Shown here one piece after another: positions 17,083-43,560 of a DNA stretch of 64,000 nt. The stretch's first letter is position 1. Each line of letters opens with the position of its first letter. The translations under genes and the position numbers were made by a program. Location of the stretch: contig JAJYIF010000004.1 in assembly GCA_021790195.1 (NCBI GenBank), positions 1 through 64,000 on the forward strand, in the 5' to 3' direction. Source of the stretch: Nitrospirota bacterium (GTDB taxonomy: Bacteria > Nitrospirota > Thermodesulfovibrionia > Thermodesulfovibrionales > UBA9159). Under the pieces are notes generated by a model that searched no databases, was not told the origin of the DNA, and was given only the letters and a program-made list of their open reading frames with translations.

Positions 17083-17946
17083 ATGAACGAGGTCGGCTCC
17101 ATAATTATCGTCGACGACGATGAAGTGCTTCTCAGCATGCTGAGAGATTATTTCCTGAACGAAGGCTACCGATGTGAAACAGCCGGCAACGCCGAGGCGG
17201 CCCTTAAGCTTATCGGCAAAGCTCCTTTCGATATCATGCTGACCGACGTCTCCTTGCCCGGCATGAAGGGGTTTGAGCTGACTGAGCGTGCGAAGAAGGT
17301 CAGGCCCGACATGGCCGTCATAATAATGACCGGCTTCATCGATGATTTCTCATACGACAGTGCAATAGAAGCGGGGGCGTCCGACTTCATAAAGAAGCCT
17401 TTCACCTTTAAAGAACTCAGGGCCAGGATGGAGCATGTCAAGGTCCACGAGAGGCAGCGTATGATGGCTATCACCGACGAGCTGACAGGTCTCTGCAACC
17501 GCCGGGGGTTCTTTACCCTTGCGGAGCAGCAGTTAAGGCTTTTGAAGAGACTGAAGAGGGGCATATATATACTTTATGCCGATGTGGACAACCTGAAGGC
17601 GATCAACGACAACCTGGGACATCAGAAAGGCGATATGGCGCTGACCGACGCCGCAAATATCCTCAAAGCTACGTACAGGGAATCCGATATCATTGCCAGG
17701 ATCGGCGGCGACGAATTTGTGGTGGCGCCCATAGGAACGACCGGAGACAGTATCGACTCGGTCACGGCCCGCCTGGAGGAGAATGTCAATCGCCACAACT
17801 CAAAGGAAGGCCGCCCTTATAAGCTTTCGCTGAGTTTCGGAGTCACCTTTTGCGATCCGGAAAACCTTTGTTCCATAGACGAGTTGCTGTCCAGCGCCGA
17901 GAAGGTGATGTACGAGCATAAAAGAAGCAAGCGCGTACGCGCCTGA
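17083..17946 (+). CDS. Response regulator with GGDEF output (diguanylate cyclase)
   Basis: A 287-residue two-domain protein. Residues 6-122 are a receiver with the acidic pair IVDDDE, phospho-acceptor Asp in DIMLTDVSLPG and the Lys in IKKPF. Residues about 130-285 are a GGDEF domain: TDELTGLCNRRGF start, DVDNLKAINDNLGHQKGD, and an intact RIGGDEFVV active site. An RESD sequence five residues before GGDEF fits the inhibitory I-site (RxxD). The Asp in GHQKGD is the canonical guanine-reading residue, so a c-di-GMP product is expected rather than the cGAMP of Hypr enzymes. Start is the ATG at 17083 with AGGAGGA before it; an in-frame extension to 16999 overlaps the MFS gene and lacks homology. No kinase gene is adjacent. 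Confidence 0.9.
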   Translation: MNEVGSIIIVDDDEVLLSMLRDYFLNEGYRCETAGNAEAALKLIGKAPFDIMLTDVSLPGMKGFELTERAKKVRPDMAVIIMTGFIDDFSYDSAIEAGASDFIKKPFTFKELRARMEHVKVHERQRMMAITDELTGLCNRRGFFTLAEQQLRLLKRLKRGIYILYADVDNLKAINDNLGHQKGDMALTDAANILKATYRESDIIARIGGDEFVVAPIGTTGDSIDSVTARLEENVNRHNSKEGRPYKLSLSFGVTFCDPENLCSIDELLSSAEKVMYEHKRSKRVRA

Positions 17947-23222: not shown

Positions 23223-23477
23223 AGGTCCAGGTGGAACTTCTTTGCCGGTGACAGCATTCCGCTGGCAGCGCACATCTTTGCCGTAGTCGATGTTTTGGAC
23301 GCTCTGGCGTCGGACTGTCCTTATCGTCCTGCCTGGCCGAAAGAGAAGATATTGAACTATCTGAGGGACGAGTCCGGAAGACATTTTGACCCCAGTGCCG
23401 CGAGGCGTCTATTGAGAAAACCGCCGCAAAATATGATAATTAAGGTGAACCCTGAGATTGCATTCTGTCGGGCATGA
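23223..23477 (+). pseudogene. Remnant of an HD-GYP domain gene (C-terminal end)
   Basis: Reading from just after an in-frame TGA at 23220, the plus strand encodes NFFAGDSIPLAAHIFAVVDV, then LDALASDCPYRPAWPKEK and SGRHFDPSAARRLL before its stop at 23477. This is the highly conserved C-terminal end of HD-GYP phosphodiesterases (IPLxARIFAVVDVxDALxSDRPYR, HFDP). The metal-binding HD and GYP portions are missing and there is no start, so it is a gene fragment. A complete HD-GYP gene exists at 41971-43041. Confidence 0.75.
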
Positions 23478-41083: not shown

Positions 41084-41674
41084 ATGCCGGATGTGGTAAA
41101 ACAGATCCTGTATTCCTTCATCCCGATCTTTGTGGCTATAGACATTTTTGCCGTCATACCGGCCTTTGTCTCAATGACCGAGGGCATGACAAGGAAGAAA
41201 AGACTCGATGTCGAGCGCGAGTCAGTGGTCACGGCCCTTGCCGTGGGGCTTTCATTTATCGCTGTCGGAGAGGGGATATTCAGGATCCTCGGCATAACCG
41301 AAAATGATTTCAAGATAGCCGGGGGTCTGATCCTTCTGATCTTCGCGGTCCTCGACCTTATGGGTTACACGAGGACGAGGGAACAGGCCGGGAAACTGGG
41401 CGTCGTGCCGCTGGGGGTGCCTCTTATCGTGGGGCCAGCAGTGCTTGCGACAATAATAGTCCTGGTAGACCATTACGGCGTCGTTCCCACCATCGTTTCG
41501 TTCATCGTAAATCTCCTCATCGTGTGGCTGTCTTTCAGGGCATCCGACAGGATACTCACCTTTTTCGGAAAGGGAGGCATCATGGCGGTTTCGAAGATCA
41601 TGGCGCTGCTCCTTGCATCCATAGCAGTGATGCTGATTCGTGTCGGTGTCGAGAATATTGTGGCGCAGTATTAG
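41084..41674 (+). CDS. MarC-family integral membrane protein
   Basis: A 196-residue membrane protein with about six helices. The first helix IPIFVAIDIFAVIPAFVSMT, the middle PLGVPLIVGPAVLATIIVL (PLaiPlixGPGai signature of MarC/UPF0056) and VSKIMALLLASIAVMLIRVGVE near the end identify the family. MarC proteins have no agreed function; they were once linked to multiple antibiotic resistance. It follows the efflux gene directly. Confidence 0.87.
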   Translation: MPDVVKQILYSFIPIFVAIDIFAVIPAFVSMTEGMTRKKRLDVERESVVTALAVGLSFIAVGEGIFRILGITENDFKIAGGLILLIFAVLDLMGYTRTREQAGKLGVVPLGVPLIVGPAVLATIIVLVDHYGVVPTIVSFIVNLLIVWLSFRASDRILTFFGKGGIMAVSKIMALLLASIAVMLIRVGVENIVAQY

Positions 41675-41721: not shown

Positions 41722-41751
41722 TTGACAATTGCTTTGGTAACGTGGTATAAA
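41722..41751 (+). promoter_or_regulatory. Sigma-70 promoter of the riboswitch transcript
   Basis: TTGACA at 41722-41727 and TATAAA at 41746-41751 with an 18-base spacer, immediately upstream of the riboswitch aptamer. Confidence 0.65.
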
Positions 41752-41757
41752 AATGTG

Positions 41758-41852
41758 GATTATCGAAAAGAGCTAACCATCCGAAAGGATGGGGCGCAAA
41801 GACACGGTCTAAAGCCTGGAAAGGTCAGGATGGCAGGTCTGCCGAAATAGTC
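41758..41852 (+). ncRNA. GEMM-I (c-di-GMP-I class) riboswitch, A20 variant
   Basis: The RNA has the GEMM-I landmarks in order: P1 strand GATTA (41758-41762), GAGCTAACC (41770-41778), the hairpin CCATCC-GAAA-GGATGG with the docking tetraloop, GGCGCAAAGACACGGTCTAAAG, a second stem, and GGCAGGTCTGCCGAAA, closing with TAGTC. Position 20 in Vc2 numbering, normally G in c-di-GMP sensors (GGCAAACC), is A here (41771). That change is the known signature of 3',3'-cGAMP-binding GEMM-Ib riboswitches of Geobacter. It lies in the 5' leader of the HD-GYP gene. Confidence 0.85.
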
Positions 41853-41865
41853 TGCTCAGACAGGG

Positions 41866-41893
41866 CCCATACCTTTTCAGGTATGGGTTTTTT
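41866..41893 (+). terminator. Intrinsic terminator of the riboswitch expression platform
   Basis: CCCATACC (41866-41873) and GGTATGGG (41880-41887) form a perfect 8-bp stem followed by six T (41888-41893). A small GTCTG-CT-CAGAC hairpin (41850-41861) overlaps the P1 3' strand and may mediate the switch. Confidence 0.85.
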
Positions 41894-41970
41894 GTTTGGG
41901 GCGGAGATTATTGGATGGGTGAGCTTAGGGCTTGAAGTCGGTATGCAATCAGGGGACAGAGGTAAGGTGA

Positions 41971-43041
41971 ATGAACGCTTTTGAAGGAAATATACTTGTT
42001 GTCGATGATGATCCCTTTGTCCTTCAGTATCTCACGGTAGTTCTCGGAAAAGAGGGTTACAGTATTGTCGCATGCGGGAGCGCAGATGAGGCTATCGCTC
42101 AACTGGGGAAGAGCAGCTTTGCTATAGTGCTGGCGGATATCAGGATGCCCGTGGTCTCGGGCCTTGAACTGCTCGAGAGGGTCCACAGTTTAGACCCGGA
42201 GACGCCTGTCATACTGATGACGGCATTTGCAGATATCGACACCGCCATCGGCGCCGTCAATAAGGGTGCCTTCAATTTTATAACCAAACCCTTCAATCGG
42301 GAAGCCCTCATGCGGTCCGTGGGAAAAGCGGTGAAGCATTACAGATTGATAGAGACGCAGAAGAATTACAAGCTCATGCTCGAAGATACCGTGATTCAGA
42401 GGACGCAGGAACTTGCGGATGCGGCCCTTATGGCGAGCAAGATGAGTCTCGAAATAATACAGCGCCTCTCTGCGGTCGCGGAGTTCAGGGACAGCTATAC
42501 CGCGGCCCACATCTCGCGGATCGGCCTTTATTCCGGGAGGATAGCCGAGGTCATGAGGATGAACGGAGACTTTGTCGAGGGCATAACCGTGGCTAGCTCT
42601 CTTCACGACATCGGGAAGATAGGCATTCCGGACAAGATACTCCTGAAGAAGAGCCGTCTCACGGAGGACGAATATCAGTTGATGAAGGAGCATACGATCA
42701 TCGGAAGCAAGATACTTTCCGATTCGTCCCATCCCACCATATGTATGGCCCATTCGATTGCGCTAAACCATCACGAGAGGTGGAAGGGCGGGGGATACCC
42801 CAACAGCCTTGCAGGGACCGAGATACCCATAGAGGCCCGCATAGTCAAACTGACGGACCAGTATGACGCCCTCAGAAGCGAGAGGACCTACAAACCTTCG
42901 CTGTCTCACGAGGAGTCCTTCAGGATAATCACGGAAGGAGACGACAGGACCAGCCCGGAGCACTTCGACCCCGAAGTGCTTGATGCGTTTATGCAAATAG
43001 CGCCGACCTTCGACGAGATATTTACACTGCACCAAGACTGA
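41971..43041 (+). CDS. Response regulator with HD-GYP phosphodiesterase domain
   Basis: A 356-residue protein: receiver (about 8-122; VVDDDPFVL, acceptor Asp in [12 protein letters not shown] Lys), short helix, then HD-GYP domain (about 160-356). HD motif is [16 protein letters not shown]; the GYP part is [14 protein letters not shown] with [17 protein letters not shown]. Trp-Asp-Gly of most family members is WKG here, the only clear deviation. HD-GYP proteins hydrolyse c-di-GMP, and some (V-cGAP enzymes, Myxococcus PmxA) hydrolyse 3',3'-cGAMP. The riboswitch in its leader predicts expression set by a cyclic dinucleotide, most likely cGAMP. Ribosome site GAGGTAAGG precedes ATG 41971. Confidence 0.9.
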
Positions 43042-43560
43042 TCAGGATGTCTTTTGAAGCAGCTGTCTGGCCCTCGCGAAAATCTCCGCGTAGGCGTCGC
43101 TTGCATAATCTGGGTAAGTGAAAAGATGCGGCCTGTACCCGCCCTCGCGGTATACAAGGGTTACCTCGGCAAAAATGCCCTGCCCGACATAGATCCGGTG
43201 CGAATAATTCTTGGTCGAAGCAAGCACTACTTTGGCGGCTGTCAGATAGCCGGGGTCTAAATTGATATTCCTCTTTCCTTCGATGGAAAGACTTGCCTCT
43301 ATCTTGTTAGTCGTAATCTTTATCGCTGCAAGGGTCTCAGGATCGATCCGGTCTTCAAAAAAGGTAAACACCCTTTTCAAGGGGCGGCCCAGTTCCTCCT
43401 CATAGTAGCGTGAATAGTCCCAGGACATCGGCGCTGTCTCGATCAAGATGCCGCCGAAGCGGCCCGAAATACTCTCTCTTGCCGAAGAGAGATAAGCCTG
43501 ATCCCGGTAGAGGATCCCGATGAAAAGAAGAGCTTCCTCTGGAAGGGACGGTCTGCCCAT
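43042..43560 (-). CDS. DUF4416 family protein
   Basis: A 172-residue soluble protein. The pattern LFIGILY near the start, the middle WDYSRYYEEELGRPLKRVFTFFEDRIDPETLAAIKITTNKIE and GRRNINLDPGYL-like sequence (KRNINLDPGYLTAAKVVLAS) match DUF4416, a family common in Nitrospirota and Deltaproteobacteria without a known function. Its stop codon begins one base after the HD-GYP stop on the other strand. It may share a transcript with the TlpA-like and ClpC genes upstream on the minus strand. Confidence 0.8.
   Translation of the reverse strand: MGRPSLPEEALLFIGILYRDQAYLSSARESISGRFGGILIETAPMSWDYSRYYEEELGRPLKRVFTFFEDRIDPETLAAIKITTNKIEASLSIEGKRNINLDPGYLTAAKVVLASTKNYSHRIYVGQGIFAEVTLVYREGGYRPHLFTYPDYASDAYAEIFARARQLLQKTS

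Follow-up and report, generated by a model that had tools for sequence, protein, structure and literature searches.

Could a riboswitch that reads 3',3'-cGAMP control the gene for a phosphodiesterase of its own signalling network? The question is raised by the leader of an HD-GYP gene within a stretch of 64,000 nt from a Nitrospirota bacterium (GCA_021790195.1, contig JAJYIF010000004.1, positions 1 to 64,000 of the forward strand), which is referred to here as the window. For Myxococcus xanthus a degradative enzyme for cGAMP has been described, namely PmxA, an HD-GYP enzyme able to take both cGAMP and c-di-GMP (PMC8844925), and none was found described for Geobacter in the literature consulted on the Hypr cGAMP pathway. 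A leader with a cGAMP-type pocket ahead of an HD-GYP gene, and a likely GacA-type synthase in the same genome, nominate a candidate degradative enzyme together with a testable circuit, and suggest that the messenger may govern an enzyme belonging to its signalling network. The best explanation, to which we give about even chances, is a cGAMP-reading, transcription-attenuating GEMM-I OFF switch that controls one response-regulator HD-GYP gene.

The aptamer and its ligand-reading bases

The leader had been assigned to GEMM-I in an initial annotation made from the sequence alone, and the covariance model agrees. RF01051 (GEMM-I) is the sole Rfam match in the whole 64-kb window, with 65.3 bits against a gathering cut-off of 35 (E 1.6e-10), and the alignment spans the full model (positions 1-87), nearly every column being at top posterior. 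In the predicted fold, the P1 helix (41757-41765/41843-41853) closes the aptamer and reaches beyond the RF01051 model, and the leader fold is more stable than that of all shuffled sequences (200/200, z -4.1).

The initial annotation had also placed A instead of G at the ligand-reading base, Vc2 position 20, and the alignment, in which no G stands at this position, bears this out. The base, A41771, corresponds to model position 11, single-stranded and 5' of P1b, and it is assigned to position 20 because the P1b pairs G41772-C41797 and C41773-G41796 fix the register. An alternative register giving G20 was rejected, as it would break one P1b pair. C41842, at model position 83, is equivalent to C92 of Vc2 and C75 of 4YAZ, the reader of G-beta according to the published contact list and position mapping (PMC7288161). 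Two features of GEMM-Ib, A at position 20 and C at position 92, are therefore found in the leader. The C at position 92 would keep the guanine side and argues against the c-di-AMP (C92U) type. Since a pocket with A20 and C92 suits one adenine plus one guanine, we infer that 3',3'-cGAMP is most likely the natural ligand.

The surroundings of the reading base form the arrangement A20-G-C...GCAAAG, that is, the pocket of Vc2 carrying G20A. The neighbours typical of the Geobacter class, although not strictly defining it (A-C-U...GGAAAG), are absent from the window pocket. In our Desulfuromonadia set, most elements have GATAATACTAAACC...GGAAAG, which fits the 4YAZ contacts, and a minority has GANAANAGCAAAC...GCAAAG, the kind present in the window. 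Vc2 with G20A is probably still tolerant of c-di-GMP. Consequently, selectivity may be loose, because the pocket (AGC...GCAAAG) is of the Vc2 G20A kind and not of the 4YAZ kind (ACU...GGAAAG). A G20A GEMM-I aptamer has served as a cGAMP biosensor (PMC11352751), and its crystal structure with cGAMP is available (4YB1; PMC6274999; PMC7288161); a study of G. sulfurreducens lists 13 GEMM-Ib elements and demonstrates cGAMP binding for 12 elements (PMC8835794). Judging by its bases, the aptamer very probably binds cGAMP, while a clear selectivity for cGAMP over c-di-GMP appears moderately probable.

The HD-GYP gene and the direction of control

The features of the leader and of the gene that follows it are listed in Table 1. 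The promoter-like element was recognised by eye; the strict consensus promoter scan, which requires the final T in the -10, reported no promoter at 41722-41751. The HD-GYP gene named in the initial annotation is intact and starts 125 nt 3' of the aptamer. The HD_5 domain is matched with E 1.7e-29, and the HDIGK, HHERW, GGGYP and DQYDAL motifs are all intact (at aa 212, 267, 273 and 296). The neighbours are a MarC-like gene upstream (41084-41674, +) and a DUF4416 gene on the opposite strand (43042-43560, -), which leaves the leader with the HD-GYP gene as its single downstream gene. Among solved structures, the protein scores best against 4mcw (PmGH), with 142 bits compared with 89 bits for the cGAMP-specific V-cGAP3 (5z7c), and this closeness to PmGH does not favour a cGAMP specificity of the protein. 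Reading the substrate preference of HD-GYP enzymes from sequence was also attempted, and no usable rule was found. Elsewhere, the window carries a second GGDEF domain, with the canonical Asp, at 17467-17934, and an 84-aa open frame containing a short piece of HD_5 at 23244-23396.

Table 1. Features of the HD-GYP leader and gene, in positions of the window
Feature	Position	Strand	Basis
Promoter-like element: TTGACA 41722-41727, 18-nt spacer, extended -10 TGG-TATAAA 41743-41751	41722..41751	+	By eye
GEMM-I aptamer	41761..41846	+	cmscan 65.3 bits; P1 from fold
A at ligand-reading position (Vc2 G20 / 4YAZ A14)	41771..41771	+	RF01051 alignment; P1b register
P3 apical segment GCCUGGAAAGGU, candidate antiterminator strand	41814..41825	+	12 contiguous pairs with 41871-41882
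C at Vc2 C92 / 4YAZ C75 equivalent	41842..41842	+	RF01051 alignment; PMC7288161 contacts
Intrinsic terminator apart from aptamer: stem 41866-41873/41880-41887, U-run 41888-41893	41862..41893	+	Terminator scan; fold
Terminator apical segment ACCUUUUCAGGU, partner of candidate antiterminator	41871..41882	+	Complementarity
Ribosome-binding-site-like AGAGG, 8 nt 5' of ATG	41958..41962	+	By eye
Rec (aa 8-116) + HD-GYP (aa 168-336) protein, 356 aa	41971..43041	+	PF00072, PF13487; PDB relatives 4mcw, 4r8z, 5z7c

Then, in which direction would the ligand act? In the ON-type pilM switch the aptamer and the terminator are mutually exclusive, while the OFF-type Cd1 switch allows both at once, with an antiterminator in competition (PMC9262584). 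The terminator that had been noticed in the HD-GYP leader was recovered by the terminator scan at 41862-41891 as a strong hairpin of 13 pairs with a T-run. It begins (41862) 3' of the aptamer and of the end of P1 (41853), and in the fold the intact aptamer and the terminator form together. The genome contains two further GEMM-I matches, C14 with 59 bits and C43 with 31 bits (under the cut-off), both with G20, in which the 5' arm of the terminator lies inside the 3' end of the aptamer, i.e., the overlapping, ON-type arrangement.

For a transcript of the HD-GYP leader ending at 41883, the antiterminator structure is the minimum free energy structure, with -42.7 kcal/mol vs. -31.3 kcal/mol for the aptamer fold. 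An equally strong duplex between the aptamer and the terminator arm was obtained with 11 of 2000 shuffled arms and with 272 of 5000 random hairpins matched in composition; the candidate antiterminator is only mildly above chance. In the full-length transcript, the terminator fold has the lower free energy even when no ligand is bound. Therefore, the switch would have to be kinetic. Separate terminators are also present in fourteen other A20 leaders of the order. An antiterminator common to these 15 leaders was sought and rejected, the segments being different and the pairing with the own arm no better than with swapped arms (40/200).

With the terminator lying clear of the aptamer and a 12-bp antiterminator possible, the arrangement suggests an OFF switch, which in our judgement is clearly favoured over ON. 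Consequently, simple negative feedback is not the favoured reading. The direct feedback loop proposed in the initial annotation calls for caution, as with an OFF-type terminator arrangement the ligand would be more likely to silence the gene than to activate it.

The candidate synthase and A20 elements in related genomes

A search for a Hypr-type GGDEF enzyme, which the initial annotation had recommended, gave one candidate in the same genome (3.3 Mb, 54 contigs, 96% complete). Among 12 GGDEF matches, the specificity residue was readable by a motif script in nine, with Asp in eight and Ser in one. The Hypr signature is a Ser/Thr replacing the GTP-specifying Asp, along with GGDE[F/Y] (PMC6456294; PMC9140294), and the Ser-bearing protein, a GAF-GGDEF protein of 463 aa with GHLVGS...GGDEF (G000:C51:4603-5991; L008/L153), shows it as Ser plus GGDEF. 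Its nearest solved structure is the GGDEF domain of G. metallireducens GacA (6D9M, 171 bits vs. 110 for PleD), and its Ser aligns to the Ser of 6D9M. RxxD (RSID) is retained five residues ahead of GGDEF, the inhibitory site whereby c-di-GMP restrains GacA (PMC6456294). By this signature, the genome likely encodes a cGAMP-making enzyme. Matches to the candidate occur in 101 of the 176 genomes of the order, and Ser is present in 30/30 orthologues read. The candidate gene is flanked directly by secA and by a gene for an MglA-like small GTPase, all on the same strand (L212 1601-2992).

Based on a hand-filtered pattern search, A20 elements are present in 22 genomes of the order. Note that chance matches and, in shifted register, a few G20 elements (e.g., G006:C257) also fitted the pattern and were removed by hand. 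As a positive control, the pattern was run on the class around a Desulfuromonadaceae genome, to which Geobacter belongs; of 117 genomes, 79 have matches, with at most 17 per genome and almost no control matches. Further families of the phylum are matched as well. Among the proteins encoded 3' of the order's A20 elements are paired-CXXCH cytochromes, proteins that are PilZ-like or secreted, and a small family with NCWEF. Taking the Geobacter cGAMP regulon (PMC6456294) for comparison, the paired-CXXCH cytochromes and PilZ proteins would make up a regulon like it. The survey indicates that, outside Desulfuromonadia, the order commonly has A20 elements as well as Hypr enzymes of the GacA-like kind, and that A20 elements are also common in the phylum, with cytochrome, PilZ and GGDEF targets.

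Co-occurrence of A20 elements and Hypr genes over 176 genomes was considered as evidence for the ligand and rejected. No association exists among GEMM-bearing genomes (18/22 vs. 49/62, p = 1), because in most families of the order almost every genome has a member of the Hypr family. In the four A20 genomes with no Hypr orthologue, Ser occurs in 0/30 GGDEF loci read.

Some individual loci are also worth recording. A family of about 110 aa (NCWEFxxCGRELGG...GRxCW...CGxCDFY) is encoded 3' of A20 elements in several genera (L190, L191, L195, L204, L206, L207), and Pfam gave no match for the one member that was scanned. Small PilZ-like proteins are encoded immediately 3' of A20 GEMM-I elements at L190, L192, L193, L194, and L195, where a cyclic-dinucleotide receptor is possibly placed under a cyclic-dinucleotide riboswitch. 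A20 elements with no evident terminator are located upstream of CXXCH cytochrome genes (L196, L197, L199), resembling, in another lineage, the cGAMP regulon of Geobacter. Others are upstream of GGDEF-containing stretches (L202, with canonical Asp, L289 and L298) and, at L254, of a gene resembling a FliA-type sigma factor.

Direct pairing of an A20 element with an HD-GYP gene was seen in one genome. RF01051 was found in none of the 20 loci of HD-GYP relatives scanned with Rfam, and a looser pattern over 29 relatives gave one spurious-looking match, L111, which has no Rfam match. No synteny is shared with the loci of the relatives (55-62% identity), and a search of the protein against named genomes returned distant matches only. 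In addition, the A20 loci read from the Desulfuromonadia set showed no HD-GYP gene up to about 1.5 kb from the element. With no RF01051 element at the relatives' HD-GYP loci, the wiring is therefore without comparative support. A looser parallel occurs in another family of the same order (G153:C8; L191 910-1899), where the A20 GEMM-I element is followed by a small NCWEF-containing protein and then, as the second gene, by an HD-GYP-like protein (HDFGK, HHERRDGSGYP), possibly an independent link of A20 elements to HD-GYP genes.

The proposed circuit, its rivals and known systems

In the circuit that we infer, as regards ligand, direction of control and enzyme substrate, the candidate Hypr GGDEF enzyme, whose gene is located elsewhere in the genome, would make 3',3'-cGAMP, the riboswitch ligand. 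With no ligand, the P3 segment would pair with the top of the terminator and transcription would go on; with ligand bound, the aptamer including P3 would be held, the separate terminator would form and the HD-GYP gene would be off. Thus, more phosphodiesterase would be made at low than at high cGAMP. Should the enzyme cleave cGAMP, high cGAMP would silence its own removal, which would be a self-reinforcing (latching) loop. If it mainly cleaves c-di-GMP, high cGAMP would let c-di-GMP rise and thereby restrain the Hypr enzyme via RxxD, and both messengers would be coupled because the Hypr enzyme keeps this inhibitory site. With an ON switch, the signs of both circuits, latch and cross-coupling, would be reversed. 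It is quite unlikely, in our estimation, that all parts of the latch hold at once, i.e., that a cGAMP-selective OFF riboswitch represses a cGAMP-degrading phosphodiesterase in a Hypr-pathway bacterium outside the Geobacter lineage; if true, this would identify the degradative enzyme of the Hypr pathway there. Should the OFF reading be true, this switch would depart from the cGAMP switches of Geobacter, for which ON behaviour has been reported.

The element could instead be a promiscuous or c-di-GMP-reading variant, in which A20 sits in a Vc2-like pocket, the RNA responds to c-di-GMP at least as well as to cGAMP, and an ordinary c-di-GMP sensor precedes a c-di-GMP phosphodiesterase. Such a variant would agree with a pocket equal to that of Vc2 G20A, with A20 elements in genomes where no Hypr gene was found and an A20 distribution that does not track Hypr, and with the G20 GEMM-I elements located near GGDEF genes in relatives. 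However, the G20A aptamer worked as a biosensor for cGAMP and was crystallised with it, and the genome has separate G20 elements as well as the GacA-like Hypr enzyme; we regard the variant as possible, though not likely. The direction of control could also be ON, where cGAMP would block termination, raise the HD-GYP enzyme and so be removed by negative feedback. A sensor ahead of a degradative enzyme is a common circuit, the characterised pilM cGAMP switch of G. metallireducens is ON (PMC9262584), and deletion of GacA lowers the genes downstream of GEMM-Ib elements (PMC6456294). Nevertheless, an ON switch seems unlikely here, as the terminator lies past the aptamer and P1 and both can form together. 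Being compatible with the terminator, the aptamer offers ligand binding no evident way to block termination, and the overlapping arrangement of the genome's two G20 elements is absent from the HD-GYP leader.

Finally, a mobile or relict riboswitch may have landed upstream of the HD-GYP gene, an accidental or decaying association with little regulation. The pairing is seen in one genome and the protein relatives at 55-62% identity lack both the element and synteny, as would be expected of such an accident. However, the leader has kept its aptamer, promoter-like element, terminator and ribosome site intact and at suitable distances, and the aptamer score tops those of all GEMM-I elements in the seven genomes of its family; we regard this explanation as quite unlikely.

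The cGAMP-reading OFF switch preferred here can be compared with known systems. The GEMM-Ib cGAMP riboswitches of Geobacter (pilM, pgcA, Gm0970; 4YAZ) are alike in the GEMM-I fold, A20, C92, the transcriptional terminator and a synthase with the Hypr signature. However, P1b is G-C with GCAAAG in the window and C-U with GGAAAG in Geobacter, the terminator is separate from the aptamer (OFF arrangement) whereas pilM is ON, and the leader would control an HD-GYP phosphodiesterase where the Geobacter targets are cytochromes or pili; the lineage is also different. The Vc2 c-di-GMP-I riboswitch (3IRW) shares the RF01051 architecture and the P1b G-C, but natural Vc2 has G20 and reads c-di-GMP; the reading base of its G20A mutant (4YB1) is the same as in the window. 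In the OFF switch Cd1 of C. difficile, as in the window, the folded aptamer and the terminator can coexist; an antiterminator competes in Cd1, as the candidate antiterminator of the window would. However, Cd1 reads c-di-GMP and its antiterminator uses the aptamer-stabilising strand, whereas the candidate strand of the window is in P3. As for the proteins, V-cGAP3, PmxA and PmGH (4mcw) have an HD-GYP domain with the HDxGK, HHE and GYP motifs, as does the window protein, which differs in its Rec-linked RpfG-type architecture and is nearer in sequence to PmGH than to V-cGAP3. The candidate Hypr protein, with GHLVGS, GGDEF and RxxD, resembles the Hypr GGDEF enzymes GacA (6D9M) and Bd0367, but according to Pfam it carries GAF and not Rec ahead of GGDEF.
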